A stretch of 42,449 nt of DNA, from positions 1-42,449 of the forward strand of contig JAFZVY010000032.1 in the NCBI GenBank assembly GCA_017617575.1, given 5' to 3'. Shown here one piece after another: positions 11,354-42,222 of the stretch; position 1 is the first letter of the stretch, and every line of letters starts with the position of its first letter. The notes under the pieces were generated by a model. It had not been told where the DNA came from and ran no database searches. It saw nothing but the letters and a program-made list of their open reading frames with translations. Source of the DNA: Bacteroidaceae bacterium (GTDB lineage: Bacteria > Bacteroidota > Bacteroidia > Bacteroidales > Bacteroidaceae). A program made the position numbers and the translations under genes.

Positions 11354-11516
11354 TAAGAAGTAAAAAGGAGTAAAAGGAAGTTTAAAGGAGTAAAAAGATG
11401 AATGATTATTTGACCAATAATCACACCCGTTTTTCTGAGAAAATCGGACGTGTACATTTTACATATCGACTTTAGCCATTCGTATCTTTACTCCTTTTTT
11501 ATTACTATTTACTCCC
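11354..11516. repeat. Inverted AGTAAAAGG array between UPF0237 and UPF0210 genes
   Basis: The left arm (11354-11404) repeats GGAGTAAAA-type units three to four times; the right arm (11476-11516) holds the complement, CTTTACTCC-type units. Between them a smaller hairpin (CCG-T-TTTTC...GAAAA-T-CGG, about 11428-11450) can form. The same arrangement recurs at 25123-25357 and 36908-37016. It fills the spacer inside what would otherwise be a simple two-gene operon, so it could act as an attenuator, RNA-stability element or inert repeat. Confidence 0.6.
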
Positions 11517-20374: not shown

Positions 20375-20397
20375 CCATTAACGGCGGAGCGTTGGCG

Positions 20398-20480
20398 AAG
20401 TTAAAAGTTATAAGTTAAGAGTTAAAAGTGGAGTGAGGAGTGAGGAGTGGGAAGAGAGAAATGAGGAGTGAGAAAACAGA
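20398..20480 (+). repeat. GTTAAAAG and GGAGTGAG degenerate repeats
   Basis: A run of GTTATAAGTTAAGAGTTAAAAG units followed by GGAGTGAGGAGTGAGGAGTG units, similar to the tract at 126-155 and, inverted, 42190-42225. No gene is seen. Confidence 0.6.
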
Positions 20481-20501
20481 AGATAGAAGTTAGAAGTTTA
20501 G

Positions 20502-20535
20502 AAGGCAAGTTAGACATGAAAATACTTGCCTTTTT
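20502..20535 (+). terminator. Terminator after the DUF2156-like gene
   Basis: AAGGCAAGT (20502-20510) pairs with ACTTGCCTT (20524-20532) and is followed by a T run to 20535. Confidence 0.75.
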
Positions 20536-24000: not shown

Positions 24001-24403
24001 AATCACAATTAAGGCTTACGAGTGCACTAAGTCATCTAACGGCTCACTCAGTGCTTCATCAACAGTTGCAGCATCTAACTCAAGCACAACAACAGGTGCA
24101 GTTGCTATTCCAATCTCAGGACTTGACGCAAACAAGATATACAAGATTGTCGTAAGCGTATCTAAGTCTTACCTCTACGAGGTTGCATTCCAGACACCTC
24201 TCACATCAATTAACAGCAACAGCTTCAACAACGCTCTTGGTGAACTCTCAAGCGACGAAGCAACAGCAATAGACGATGCAGAGGTTGACGCTCCTGCTGA
24301 CAACAAGATTTACACAATCAACGGTCAGTATGTTGGCAACGACATCAACGCCCTTCCAAAGGGATTGTACATCATCAATGGCAAGAAGGTTAACGTAAGA
24401 TAA
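21098..24403 (+). CDS. Secreted subtilisin-family (S8) serine protease
   Basis: The 1101-residue protein has a signal peptide (MVKKSLLFGLMMSSSTFMLA), a propeptide-like region (about 22-165), and a complete catalytic set: D189 in VVDTGIDF, H239 in DHGTHTS, oxyanion N314 in VVVSNSWGS and S646 in GTSMATPVAAG. The N-to-S distance is 332 residues against 66 in BPN', because a beta-rich, Ser/Thr/Tyr-rich domain of about 250 residues is inserted. After the catalytic domain come a Pro/Asp/Thr linker (DPDPTPTPDP), an Ig-like domain (about 730-825) and a Ser-rich beta domain (about 840-1030). The C-terminus, IYTINGQYVGNDINALPKGL plus IINGKKV, looks like a type IX secretion sorting signal of the Prevotella type. 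Heavy codon bias suggests high expression. Probably released or surface-bound, degrading protein. Confidence 0.9.
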   Translation: MVKKSLLFGLMMSSSTFMLAQSDINSKLSLTTQMFLNERDGKEVTRRKAPTVERDLGLKLDETFRNKIAQGGDRLYAAPEVQNGVTYISTFIRVKNDAEISELEAKGVQIQCKFDNGLVTAIVPVDSLESVAGLDNVARLNVSPLMHKATNTARTATKAGDVLTQSTDAISAGLSKVYDGTGVVLGVVDTGIDFQHVAFKDKNGNSRIKRAYVYNGSSAKEYTSITSSAPTTDDSGEDHGTHTSSTAGGSSVIINGSNVTVTDNHASATYGGIAPGADLYLAGIKSLSSTYMANAFQKICNYADAQGKPVVVSNSWGSQMGPHDGTGDFADITNQYFGDNHPNHICLFAASNDAGKGIEGGGYHASGTSTSSKPFGTVLRSHTYSNTDDGYYYYGTVANAWTRSSISGSLACKIYVLDSSTGAVKTSVTVTKGSSNYKTVSGLSSYYSGSLTVYFDYISSTKSQILLYSSGLTTKSSTTTTKNGSTYYKSKYTLAIQIYPTSGSATIDVWGGDNGYMTSTPATSGYTWTSGSDNSSVSDEATMPSVIAVGAYVSKNSVKDYNGTTHSLAHKYTVGDIAYFSSYQEAGQGPTGQQIPWITAPGATVVAGVNAYHTSGGYLDDTYASYEMYRVNSNKTNPYGSMEGTSMATPVAAGVVALWLQAAKESNKSMTTTDIKNVMKNTAINDSYTTTGANASHFGNGKINALAGIKAILGTSGGTVTPDPDPTPTPDPAITASKTSVSLATTVGTPVSTTFTVTGTNVTSTATVALTDASGVFTVSPATISASALTSGKAVTVTFNPSAAGTFTGKVTVTSGSAKVTVNLTATATAPQQEETGGTASDNYLNLRNYATIDDANYSGVNNFYTITQSGNSAWISIPAYGAYYSTSYQRWISASNISTVRTTWSKADVFGGYSSFFNSSSNARAITSSSYGSTAATETFYVSNCTGVKLYGYGRSTSSWWSSSTGSITIKAYECTKSSNGSLSASSTVAASNSSTTTGAVAIPISGLDANKIYKIVVSVSKSYLYEVAFQTPLTSINSNSFNNALGELSSDEATAIDDAEVDAPADNKIYTINGQYVGNDINALPKGLYIINGKKVNVR

Positions 24404-24425
24404 TCTCCCCACGCCTAATAACGAC

Positions 24426-24462
24426 AAAGGTCAGCCTTGCACACGCAAAGCTGACCTTTTTT
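24426..24462 (+). terminator. Terminator after the protease gene
   Basis: AAAGGTCAGC (24426-24435) pairs with GCTGACCTTT (24450-24459); an inner TTGC/GCAA stem extends it, and six T residues follow. It lies between convergent genes. Confidence 0.9.
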
Positions 24463-24492
24463 ATTTGTCTTATGTTACCTTAAATCCTTACC

Positions 24493-24981
24493 TTATGCTT
24501 TCCTCTCCTTCTTTGCCCTTTCCACCACATCGGTGCGCATAAGGCTTGCTTCTGTCTGCAACTGCTTTATGAACTTATGCTGACACTCCGCCTTGATGCG
24601 TACGCTCACACCAGCTTTCGACACGAGTTCACCGGCGTTGTCCTCTGTCAGTTCTGCCACTGACGGGTCAAGCTCCCGTGCCCTGTCAATGTTGATGTTT
24701 CCACCGTTGATGTTTACGTCAGGATAGATTCTTATGGCAACATCATCTCCGTTTTTCAGATAGACAGAGTACCCCATTGACATAAGGTTGATAGCTGCCT
24801 TGCAAAAGTTGTCGAGAACGGACTTTGCCACCTGTTCTGGTATGAGAGGGTTCTCATGGTTTATCTCACGAGCAAGTGCATTCTCGTCGCACTTCTTCAG
24901 TTCTTCACAGACTGTTATGGTCTTATGGTCAATACCGAAAGCCTCGATGCCATTGTTAATACAAATCTTGTAGCGTATCAT
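24493..24981 (-). CDS. Small HU-like (histone-like) domain protein
   Basis: A 162-residue protein beginning MIRYKICINNGIEAFGID. The first 110 residues resemble the Bacteroidota HU-type domain: an RYK opening strand, a helix-turn region (ALAREINHENPLIPEQVAKSVLDNFCKAAINLMSMGYSV) and VYLKNGDDVAIRIYPDVN where the DNA-binding arm would be. The C-terminal 50 residues are charged and helical. Members of this group are divergent, so the HU assignment is tentative. The gene is alone; its upstream DNA holds three regularly spaced palindromes, which makes a DNA-binding role attractive. No signal peptide. Confidence 0.4.
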   Translation of the reverse strand: MIRYKICINNGIEAFGIDHKTITVCEELKKCDENALAREINHENPLIPEQVAKSVLDNFCKAAINLMSMGYSVYLKNGDDVAIRIYPDVNINGGNINIDRARELDPSVAELTEDNAGELVSKAGVSVRIKAECQHKFIKQLQTEASLMRTDVVERAKKERKA

Positions 24982-25044
24982 GGTTCCTATGACGATTACC
25001 TTTACATCGCGAGGTTCTGAATAACCGAGATTCTTTTACTAACG

Positions 25045-25103
25045 ATTACCTCGTAATTATTGAAATGATTACCTCGTAATTGCCGAAACGATTACGAAGT
25101 AAT
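25045..25103. promoter_or_regulatory. Three ATTAC-N3-GTAAT palindromes at 23-bp spacing
   Basis: ATTACCTCGTAAT at 25045-25057, the same at 25068-25080, and ATTACGAAGTAAT at 25091-25103: identical 5-bp half-sites, a three-base centre and start-to-start distance of exactly 23 bp. A related half-site (GATTACC) lies at 24994-25000. The array is 64-122 bases upstream of the HU-like gene, where an operator or cooperative binding array would be expected. Regulator unknown. Confidence 0.6.
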
Positions 25104-25122
25104 TGTTTCTTTTCTTTTAAGG

Positions 25123-25357
25123 GAAGTAAAGAGGAGTAAAAGAGAGTAAAAAGAAGTAAAGGGACGATAGTCTGTATGAACAATAGCACCTGAATCTATC
25201 CCTTTCACATCTTTACCACAAAAGGGAAAGCTCCGATAAGCTATCGTCTCTTTACTCCTTTTTACTTCCTTTTAATACTCTTTACTTCAAAAAGGAAAGC
25301 TCCGACAAGCTATCGTCCCTTTACTCCTTTTTACTCCCTTTTACTCCTCTTTACTTC
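25123..25357. repeat. Large inverted GGAGTAAAA array with an internal 69-bp direct repeat
   Basis: The left arm (25123-25170) is the inverse of 25310-25357 with about two mismatches in 48, and a second, more diverged right-arm copy lies at 25241-25288. The two right-arm copies are preceded by the same GGAAAGCTCCGA-AAGCTATCGT block, making a 69-bp direct repeat. The arms are built of GGAGTAAAA/GAAGTAAAG units and a GACGATAG end. The last copy overlaps the stop codon of the GH2 gene, so the repeat supplies the end of that protein. Confidence 0.7.
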
Positions 25358-27954
25358 AAAAAAGAAACAACAGAGCTTGCTTCCTTCAATCCCTCGCTCG
25401 TTACTTTCAGCGTGGCAGCACCAGCCTTGCCATTGTTCTGGAGTACCACGAGGCACTTGCCATTGAAGGCATGGCGACGTGTGTCGGCAAAGCGTTCGAG
25501 GGAGGTCTGGAGTCCGTTGTCCACTCCTGCTATGAAGGCAGAGCCTGTCACGTCGAAGGAGACGAGGTTGTCAGCCCACGGGCAGAGGTTGCCGTCCTTG
25601 TCGAGTACCTCGACCGTCACGAAGGAGAGGTCAGTGCCGTCGGCACGGAGTTCGGTGCGGTCAGGCGTGAGGCGTATCTGTGCTGGTGCACCAGCTGTGC
25701 GGATGGTCTGTACCTTCACGACCTTGCCGTCCTTGCGCGAGATGGCTTGCACCTCGCCTGCCTCATACTTCACTCGCCACACAACGTGGAGGCAGTCATC
25801 CGTCTTATGGCGAGTACCCTGGCTCTTGCCGTTGACGAACAGCTCCACCTCGTCGGCGTTGTTGTAGTAAGCCCAGAGGTCAATCATGCCGTCGGCTGGG
25901 AGCTGGTCTGGCGTCCATGTCCAGTGAGGGAAGAGGTGAAGCACGTCATCATGGGTCAGCTCAGCCTTGTAGAGGTAATATACGTCCTTAGGGAAACCTG
26001 CCAGATCAACGATGCCGAAGTAGCTGCTTCGTGCAGGCCATCCGTATGGCGTAGGCTCGCCGATGTAGTCGAAGCCTGTCCAGACGAACTGGCCGCATAT
26101 CCAAGGGTAACGGCGCATGAGCAAGAGGTTCTCCTCGTTGGTGTTGCCCCAAGGCACGTGGCAGTTCTCGTAGCTTGAGCAGGCGAAGCTCTCATCGTGG
26201 AACGGGATGTCCCACCTCTTAGGGAAGATGTACATGCTGTCGGAAGGCATGCGGTAGTATCCTCGGGTCATGAGGGCAGAGTTGCTCTCGGTTATGATGA
26301 ACGGCTTGCCGGGGAAGCGGCGTGGCACGTCAGGAATGTTCTGGTTGTGGTAGTTGAAGCCGATAACATCGAGTGCATCAGCCTTGAAGAGGTGGTTGTA
26401 CTCGTTCGGTTCGTTGCATCCAGCCGTGATTGGTCGGTTGTCGTACTCCTTCATCAGAGCCACGAGCTTGCGGGTGAGGAGGGAGTTGACGCTCATTGTG
26501 CCGTCGTCCTTAGCCAGCTGATCGGCACTGTGTCCGAAGTTGAGCAGTAGGTTAGCCTGTTCGAGGGTGAGCGTGTCGGCATCAGCGTCCGTCCATTGCT
26601 CCAGCACCTCGTTGCCCACGCTCCATATCACGATGGATGGGTGGTTGCGGTCGCGGAGCATGAAGTCACGGAGGTCACGCTCGTGCCACTCGTTGAAGTA
26701 GCGCGCATAGTCGTGCTTCGTCTTAGCCTTACGCCACATGTCGAAGGCTTCGTCCATGACGAGCATTCCAAGGCTGTCGCACACGTCGAGCAGTTCCGGT
26801 GCAGGTGGATTGTGCGAGCAACGGATGCCGTTGATGCCCATGCCCTTGAGTATCTCCACCTGACGTTCTATGGCACGGCGGTTCACTGCCGCACCGAGAC
26901 AGCCAAGGTCGTGGTGCATGCACACTCCCTGTATCTGCATAGGCTGACCGTTGAGGAGGAAGCCGTCGGGCGTGAACTGCGCCTTACGGAAGCCGACTTG
27001 GGTCGTGTAGCAGTCGATGTCCTCAGTCACGTTGTTAGACATCTTGGCACCAGCTATCGCTCCTCCCACGGCACCGAACATTAAGCCTAAGTAGGCTGAG
27101 TCGTCATTGGTACGGAAGGCGAGATGCGACTTGACCTTGTAGAGGCAAGGGTTGGTCACGCTCCACAGCTCCACGTTCTCAAGGGGAATGGATAGCTTGA
27201 CCACCGCAGTGTCATGTGCTGCAATAGTGACTGACTTCTTGGCAGAACTACGCATGAAGGGTGAGTTGTCCTTCGTAATAGTGTTGTAAAGCATCACGGT
27301 AGTCTTCTTGTTGCCATCATTGACCACGGTTGTATTGACCGTCAGCATACATCGCCTTGCAGCGCGCTTGCTGCCATTGGCATCCAAGTGGAGGTTTCTA
27401 AGCGTATATTTTACCTCCACGCCATCGTGGGCTATGTGGACGGCTGGGCTGCACGTCAGCCACACGTTGCGGTAGATGCCGCAGCCAGAATACCAACGTG
27501 AGTTAGGCTGCTCGGTGTTGTCCACCCGTACCTCTATGTCATTGTACTCCCCGAGAGGATTGAGATAAGGCGTGATGTCGAATCCGAACGACACGTAGCC
27601 GTATGGGCGACGCCCCACGAGGCTGCCGTTCACATACACCGAGGCATTCATATACACTCCGTCGAAGTCGAGGCGGTAGCGCATACCCTTGTCATGCTTC
27701 ATATCGGTGCAGAAACGCTTGCGATACACACCCATGCCGCCCGGGAGCGCACCGCCGCCAGTGCCGCTTGGGTTGGCAGGGTCGAAGTCGCCCTTTATTG
27801 CCCAGTCGTGCGGGAGGCGCACCTCCTGAGCCTCACCACCATTGAGGCTGAACGTCCAACCATCGTTGAACGAACGCCTCCATGTGCTCTGTGCCAATGC
27901 GCCTACAGATGAAAGTAGCATGGCTATGATGGCTAAAGCATAGTTTCTCTTCAT
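25351..27954 (-). CDS. Glycoside hydrolase family 2, beta-galactosidase-like
   Basis: The 867-residue protein has a signal peptide (MKRNYALAIIAMLLSSVGALAQ), a sugar-binding domain with WTFSLNGGEAQEVRLPHDW and GMGVYRKRF, an Ig-like domain, and a TIM barrel with NGIRCSHNPPAPELLDVCD. The acid/base is E449 in WSVGNEVLEQW and the nucleophile E556 in FIITESNSA. C-terminal domains (about 690-867) fit Bacteroidota beta-galactosidases. It follows the GH31 gene by 14 bases and is surely co-transcribed. The pairing suggests removal of galactose before xylose from a branched glycan. An insert rich in Gly/Ala (about 295-310) interrupts the Ig-like domain. The last codons lie in repeat DNA. Confidence 0.85.
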   Translation of the reverse strand: MKRNYALAIIAMLLSSVGALAQSTWRRSFNDGWTFSLNGGEAQEVRLPHDWAIKGDFDPANPSGTGGGALPGGMGVYRKRFCTDMKHDKGMRYRLDFDGVYMNASVYVNGSLVGRRPYGYVSFGFDITPYLNPLGEYNDIEVRVDNTEQPNSRWYSGCGIYRNVWLTCSPAVHIAHDGVEVKYTLRNLHLDANGSKRAARRCMLTVNTTVVNDGNKKTTVMLYNTITKDNSPFMRSSAKKSVTIAAHDTAVVKLSIPLENVELWSVTNPCLYKVKSHLAFRTNDDSAYLGLMFGAVGGAIAGAKMSNNVTEDIDCYTTQVGFRKAQFTPDGFLLNGQPMQIQGVCMHHDLGCLGAAVNRRAIERQVEILKGMGINGIRCSHNPPAPELLDVCDSLGMLVMDEAFDMWRKAKTKHDYARYFNEWHERDLRDFMLRDRNHPSIVIWSVGNEVLEQWTDADADTLTLEQANLLLNFGHSADQLAKDDGTMSVNSLLTRKLVALMKEYDNRPITAGCNEPNEYNHLFKADALDVIGFNYHNQNIPDVPRRFPGKPFIITESNSALMTRGYYRMPSDSMYIFPKRWDIPFHDESFACSSYENCHVPWGNTNEENLLLMRRYPWICGQFVWTGFDYIGEPTPYGWPARSSYFGIVDLAGFPKDVYYLYKAELTHDDVLHLFPHWTWTPDQLPADGMIDLWAYYNNADEVELFVNGKSQGTRHKTDDCLHVVWRVKYEAGEVQAISRKDGKVVKVQTIRTAGAPAQIRLTPDRTELRADGTDLSFVTVEVLDKDGNLCPWADNLVSFDVTGSAFIAGVDNGLQTSLERFADTRRHAFNGKCLVVLQNNGKAGAATLKVTSEGLKEASSVVSFLK

Positions 27955-36907: not shown

Positions 36908-37016
36908 AAAGGAGTTAAAGAGGAGTTAAAAAGTAGTTATAGCGAAGTTAAAAAGACGATACTCATTCGTCTCTTTAGCTACCATTTAACTCCTTTTTAA
37001 CTCCATTTTTACTCCC
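36908..37016. repeat. Inverted GGAGTTAAA array between the DJ-1 and ispD genes
   Basis: The left arm (36908-36944) has GGAGTTAAAGAGGAGTTAAA-type units, and the right arm (36983-37016) the complement, TTTAACTCCTTTTTAACTCC. In the middle, GACGA...TCGTC (36955-36971) makes a small stem. The design matches 11354-11516 and 25123-25357, but the units carry an extra T (GTTAAA for GTAAA). Confidence 0.6.
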
Positions 37017-42027: not shown

Positions 42028-42222
42028 TGAATTAAAATTAAGAATTAAGAAACTTTTGTTCGACGAAGTCAATGAAGAGTTAAGATTTTATATAGAAGCA
42101 GCGCACGCATGCATTCCAAGCCTATCAAGAGCCGTCCTTGGCTCTTGCCAAGCAGATAAGTGCGGAAAGACAAAATGCTGCGTGCCAGCCCAACTTTTAA
42201 CTTATAATTTATAACTTTTAAC

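Follow-up and report, generated by a model that had tools for sequence, protein, structure and literature searches.

What purpose might be served by three short palindromes set at regular steps in front of a gene for a small HU-like protein? They lie in a contig of a Bacteroidaceae bacterium (JAFZVY010000032.1, assembly GCA_017617575.1), the whole 42,449-nt stretch of which we call the window. Two copies of ATTAC-CTC-GTAAT (25045–25057 and 25068–25080) and one of ATTAC-GAA-GTAAT (25091–25103), which as palindromes have no strand, occupy consecutive units (25041–25063, 25064–25086 and 25087–25109), each without a mismatch. A preliminary description had claimed three such sites at exact 23-bp steps, the first two sharing a centre and the third having another; direct-repeat search and TRF find the steps exact, and the centres read CTC, CTC and GAA in order. 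The dyad of the third unit reaches further out (AAC.ATTAC-GAA-GTAAT.GTT). The array stands far above chance, with 0.77 occurrences of ATTAC-N3-GTAAT expected across the window at up to one mismatch, and a tandem score of 26 in the 350 bp upstream of the gene, where 1000 dinucleotide shuffles reach no more than 13. The genome-wide count that had been proposed gave seven exact copies of the pattern in the 3.38-Mb assembly (G000) and four of a reversed control. Three of the seven are the array itself, one belongs to a longer array between glnN and gltB, and the remaining three lie within open frames of 238, 429 and 642 aa.

The remainder of the spacer was correctly described as simple sequence, and it also holds a 53-nt inverted repeat (92% complementary; 25123–25175 and 25305–25357) between the array and a GH2 gene. 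A 69-nt direct repeat of AGTAAAGG-like units (25210–25347) lies in the same interval, and these repeats overlap the end of the GH2 gene slightly. Short-period arrays are numerous in the window, with units of 7, 10 and 11 bp (e.g. AGTTAAG and AAGAAGTAAA) at 126–155, 11355–11398, 20397–20504, 36908–36955, 42029–42051 and other places.

The gene (24493–24981, minus strand) lies 64 bp from the first site and encodes 162 aa, both figures as first read. We take its product to be a diverged member of the HU-HIG group (clade A1), a group reportedly defined in a 2017 study. Members of the family (PF18291) carry an HU domain fused to a wHTH, Ig or Gly-rich motif (Pfam description). The Pfam model for PF18291 gave no match to the window protein and matched two of six clade members weakly (best E 0.099). 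A profile of 40 HU-HIG proteins matches all 12 clade proteins, at E values from 7e-7 to 3e-3 with the database size set to 1000, and all 12 score better than the best of 500 shuffles (0.19). Comparison of the clade by hhalign gave 91% with all 40 HU-HIG proteins, 72% and 28% with smaller alignments, 75%, 24% and 0.3% with three HU-HIG subgroups, and 1.6% with short HU. No wHTH was seen in the clade; a Gly-rich tail is present in four of the six clade proteins examined and absent from the window protein, for which a single-sequence AlphaFold2 model was not usable (mean pLDDT 37.7).

The 162-aa protein has few close relatives, which occur in four of 45 genomes of the genus, five of 399 of the family, and one of 19 and five of 139 in two further genera, these genome sets overlapping. 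A search of public genomes that started from the window protein gave 34 stretches matching a pattern, among which no relative was confirmed. One clade gene is split over two frames (L042/L043, G447:C16), and is thus broken or mis-assembled. On the minus strand of the window, the leader element CCTCGCGATGTAAAGGTAATCG (24993–25014) starts 33 nt before the ATG. Six of 12 clade loci (L009, L010, L030, L031, L037 and L038) have a similar element, near AACCTCNCGATGTATAGGNAATCG, that begins 32–34 nt before the ATG, and the element is possibly part of the control region.

The preliminary description had proposed that related upstream regions be aligned, expecting the half-sites to be kept. What is kept is the layout: in a lag test, tandem arrays at lags of 23–25 bp precede all 12 usable clade genes, ending 37–99 bp from the ATG, and 11 of the 12 are palindromic at p ≤ 0.035, the exception (L040) being cut by a contig edge. 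The sequence of the half-sites is not kept. Within 350 bp, none of the other 11 clade upstream regions comes closer to the site than two mismatches (range 2–4), which rules out an operator of conserved sequence; the sole exact match in the other clade loci (L038, position 2409) is far from that locus's array. All 12 regions have arrays whose letters differ, falling into at least six sequence classes, with units such as ATTAC-CTC-GTAAT, AACGAAATCTAGATTTCGTT, CCCCGATAGTAT.., CCTCGTTTTTATCACCAACAAAAA, ATCAATC-GAG-GATTGAT, CTTTCTTA-G-TAAGAAAG and AAATTA-T-TAATTT. Array class bears no relation to protein identity across the 12 loci (rho −0.007, p 0.96), and two proteins that are 85% identical (L041 and the first piece of L042) have arrays of different classes. 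A double-unit pattern, ACGA-N10-TCGT, was found in three of 45 genomes of the genus, as was its control pattern.

Might such arrays simply be tandem repeats that happen to contain a palindrome? Their palindromicity, summed and compared with position-permuted units, disfavours this reading, with z 18 for the clade and HU-HIG arrays and z 22.8 for a public set of HU-wHTH loci (best 80 of 116 relatives). Individually, at p ≤ 0.05, palindromicity holds for 11 of 12 clade arrays, 12 of 23 HU-HIG arrays and, among the best 80 of 116, 41 of 55 public arrays (one of the 56 having too few rows). The half-site columns are also better conserved than the remainder of the unit in three sets (0.154, 0.170 and 0.179, with permuted-column values of 0.085, 0.085 and 0.095; each p 0.024, the least possible), an excess that stands above the bias introduced by choosing the dyad. 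The earlier claim that half-sites rather than centres are kept stands within arrays and fails, as sequence, among relatives. Compensatory changes within arrays show no excess (5 observed, 5.2 in shuffles). Arrays comprise three to seven rows, and ten in one locus; some dyads have centres of 0–1 nt, and a spacing of 10.5 bp between dyad centres is frequent (64 of the listed steps, at a loose threshold of six of eight pairs), which would suit a chain of protein on one face of the helix.

The association of array and gene, which had been proposed for an operator-like set of sites at a single HU-like gene, is supported there and holds well beyond the window. Arrays at lags of 21–25 bp precede 23 of 38 long HU-HIG genes with 120 bp or more of noncoding DNA in front of them, and eight of 243 other genes (Fisher p 2.4e-17). 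The HU-HIG genes were drawn from 14 above the cut-off in G000 and from the 30 loci returned for 40 places in G006, G019 and G188; PF18291 has 12–16 matches in each of these four genomes, of which a few are short HU. The background genes come from 40 chunks (647 kb) of the same four genomes and G472, the chunks being the first 20 kb of listed contigs and not a random draw, after removal of one HU-HIG gene (in L074). Gene starts in this comparison follow a simple open-frame rule, and rows below the PF18291 cut-off (L098 and L099) were left out. We also dropped L087, L123 and L011 for contig edges, and L034–L036 and L043 as duplicates. Short HU genes, counted apart, have no array (0 of 4, one with only 70 bp of noncoding DNA).

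The association was replicated in public records from Bacteroides, Parabacteroides, Phocaeicola, Segatella, Prevotella, Mediterranea and MAGs, gathered by protein-sequence search only (294 stretches), from which we used the best 80 of 116 HU-wHTH relatives. Of these 80, 79 were usable (L149 had too short an upstream region) and 56 were positive, 50 at lag 21, five at lag 22 and one at lag 23; no other lag within 16–40 was best at threshold, and one of 48 neighbour genes was positive. Thinned below 60% identity, these best 80 of 116 leave 19 of 24 loci positive, and shuffles of the upstream DNA of the public set gave none in 790. Three records (L130, L131 and L133) repeat G019, two of them positive, so that the distinct array-bearing loci number 89 (12 + 23 + 56, less two counted twice). 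No array was detected at 15 of the 38 HU-HIG genes or at 23 of the 79 public genes (best 80 of 116).

These counts bear on the idea that the arrays are mobile or self-amplifying minisatellites that gather near HU-HIG genes and have no regulatory role. Such elements have a precedent in the 23-nt tandem repeats within a MITE of Porphyromonas gingivalis, as described in the accessible part of PMC4596501, and arrays do occur at unrelated genes (the eight of 243) and in the glnN–gltB spacer. The contrast between HU-HIG genes and both background and neighbour genes argues against this idea, as do the palindromicity, the link of the step to protein subfamily and the promoter phase in the HU-wHTH set, and we regard it as unlikely.

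The step goes with the subfamily of the protein: it is mostly 21 bp in the HU-wHTH group (lag 21 in nine of 11 in this comparison), 21–23 bp in other groups and 23–25 bp, mostly 24, in the window's clade. Between best hits it differs by 0.31 on average, as opposed to 1.41 for shuffled labels (none of 5000 as low), and without the window's clade by 0.35 as opposed to 0.92 (p 0.003). In the HU-wHTH group, across 50 lag-21 loci (best 80 of 116), arrays tend to be alike where the predicted recognition helices are alike (rho 0.31, p 0.003); the residue window of the helix we fixed beforehand from what we took to be the HTH layout. The correlation persists among pairs under 50% identity (rho 0.19, p 0.003; best 80 of 116). 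In the same best 80 of 116, the correlation with the whole protein lies below that with the helix (rho 0.17, p 0.007), and that with the HU part is weak (rho 0.14, p 0.03) and absent under 50% identity. A sliding scan of these best 80 of 116 peaks at residues 169–188 (family-wise p 0.005) and shows smaller maxima around 103 and 193; confined to pairs under 50%, it peaks at 103–122 with signal at 193 onwards and at 157–182 (p 0.03; best 80 of 116). The readout in the window's clade is less certain, because array class there ignores protein similarity and no promoter box was found.

An alternative is that the arrays are operators for unlinked regulators, another one for each gene. Array sequences that vary from gene to gene would fit this, as would the presumptive status of binding by the own product; the common factor of the 89 distinct loci, however, is the HU-HIG gene itself, and the dependence of the step on subfamily, with that of HU-wHTH motif similarity on the recognition helix, leaves unlinked regulators improbable in our judgement. 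The nine-unit array in the spacer between glnN (glutamine synthetase III) and gltB (glutamate synthase; L007 3068–3275, G000:C138) contains three palindrome types, two of which it shares with the arrays of the two G000 paralogues: one of its units is ATTACCTCGTAAT and four are of the AATCTAGATT type. We considered gltB as a target shared across a regulon and rejected it. In a survey of 25 genomes (four without a match; G020, with a contig edge only, left out), arrays were present at gltB in two of seven loci from genomes that have a clade gene and two of 14 from genomes that lack one, and G019 keeps an ATTAC unit there though its own clade array differs. Other arrays at gltB are found in G026 and G029.

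Arrays of ACTA-N-TAGT dyads at step 23 precede a gene that by eye resembles an alpha-amylase gene (L045 14840–14900) and an ECF sigma gene (L069 17637–17706); they resemble the arrays of two HU-HIG genes (L112 and L118), and are possible targets in trans. In G003, GTCGTTACTAACGAC-like palindrome arrays with 23-bp steps lie near other genes (L026 and L029).

The placement of the arrays relative to promoters is informative in the HU-wHTH set only. Across the 56 positive public loci (best 80 of 116), 42 copies of the −7 box TAnnTTTG fall between array and ATG (8.1/kb), two within the array and four in the 200 bp above it (about 0.4/kb for the latter two); the opposite strand has 15 copies 100–200 bp above the array (best 80 of 116), perhaps marking a divergent gene. 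Since any promoter would give box enrichment near the ATG, it is the phase rather than the enrichment that is informative. In more than half of the measurable loci the last dyad lies 31–32 bp, or that distance plus n × 21 bp, upstream of the box. The distance is 10–11 modulo 21 in 16 of 28 loci (those of 37 lag-21 loci with p ≤ 0.05 that have a box below the last dyad), and in six of ten after thinning (p 1e-4), in both cases among the best 80 of 116. The geometry is not uniform, because the box may also sit upstream of the array, as in L041 and L042 of the window's clade and in three HU-wHTH loci of the window's genus (L090, L091 and L125). Among 35 arrays outside the public set, ten boxes lie within 100 bp above the array and seven below it. 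For the window gene no consensus −7 box was found in 600 bp.

With the box upstream of them, the arrays of L041 and L042 could be transcribed, which would suit 5′ leader RNA hairpins controlling translation or mRNA stability. In an RNA of this kind G-T mismatches on the sense strand should outnumber A-C; there is no clear excess, the ratios being 15:12, where composition slightly favours A-C, and 35:49 (rows at least 60% paired in arrays with p ≤ 0.05, 23 of 35 and 41 of 55 arrays). Most boxes of the public HU-wHTH set (best 80 of 116) fall below the array, and dyad centres of 0–1 nt are too tight for a loop unless pairs open. A search of Rfam over 24400–25500 gave eight matches up to E 1, all below gathering scores. 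Leader hairpins thus seem to us quite improbable.

The array in the window is, in our view, probably a self-addressed operator of its HU-HIG-family gene. The association and the palindromic architecture are shown statistically, over sets of genes rather than gene by gene; we infer binding of the array by the gene's own product, its cooperativity and the sign of control from the arrangement of sites and genes. Many HU-HIG genes of Bacteroidales sit behind mostly three to six palindromes, at a step that goes with the subfamily, with letters that vary between loci while dyad and step persist. In the mechanism that we think likely, HU-HIG dimers would occupy one dyad after another in a cooperative manner, lying next to each other on the helix, and the array-bound dimers would control transcription of their own gene. 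In the HU-wHTH group, a phased last dyad before the −7 box would suit contact with, or occlusion of, RNA polymerase; in the window's clade, where a wHTH is not visible, recognition may rest on spacing and DNA shape more than on sequence.

More speculatively, HU-HIG proteins might make up a large collection of Bacteroidales regulators orthogonal to one another, each with a private array whose step is fixed by the protein's geometry and whose letters drift freely. The arrays would be read by the wHTH in the HU-wHTH group and mainly through dyad and spacing (DNA shape or cruciform) in the window's branch. This wider proposal is tentative, and we hold it to be possible rather than probable; a readout of symmetry and spacing in the clade would account for array classes that change there regardless of protein ancestry.

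We found no known targets of HU-HIG proteins, and no description of arrays upstream of their genes, in the open-licence literature, so that the wider array-family pattern is, as far as we have searched, undescribed. An array before over half of the tested genes offers a ready-made DNA target with a step predictable from the subfamily. If binding is confirmed, a large and uncharacterised group of regulators would gain an assay, and HU-type proteins, usually deemed poorly sequence-specific, would include privately addressed ones.

Three known systems come close to the arrangement proposed here. In Escherichia coli, hupA and hupB are under negative control by HU, and an inverted repeat that could form a cruciform overlaps the hupA promoter (accessible part of PMC3969353); the point in common is autoregulation by a protein of the HU fold. 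The hupA case involves one large inverted repeat, unlike the arrays described here, and that part of the paper mentions no run of short palindromes whose step is linked to subfamily. The same part of PMC3969353 describes PG0121 of P. gingivalis, a Bacteroidales HU linked, much as here, with a palindromic region where a transcription unit begins. PG0121, however, is an E. coli-like HU, and the region is a single 77-bp repeat before another operon, the capsule locus. It is described there as binding DNA structures without discrimination, though perhaps with some preference for the sequence of the 77-bp repeat. The BrickBuilt elements of P. gingivalis, so far as the accessible part of PMC4596501 describes them, resemble our arrays as intergenic 23-nt tandem repeats, one copy of which adjoins the gene of a PF00216 DNA-binding protein. 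BrickBuilt is one family with a leader and a tail and 1 to 22.8 copies of the repeat (same part of PMC4596501), whereas the arrays described here are short and specific to their loci.
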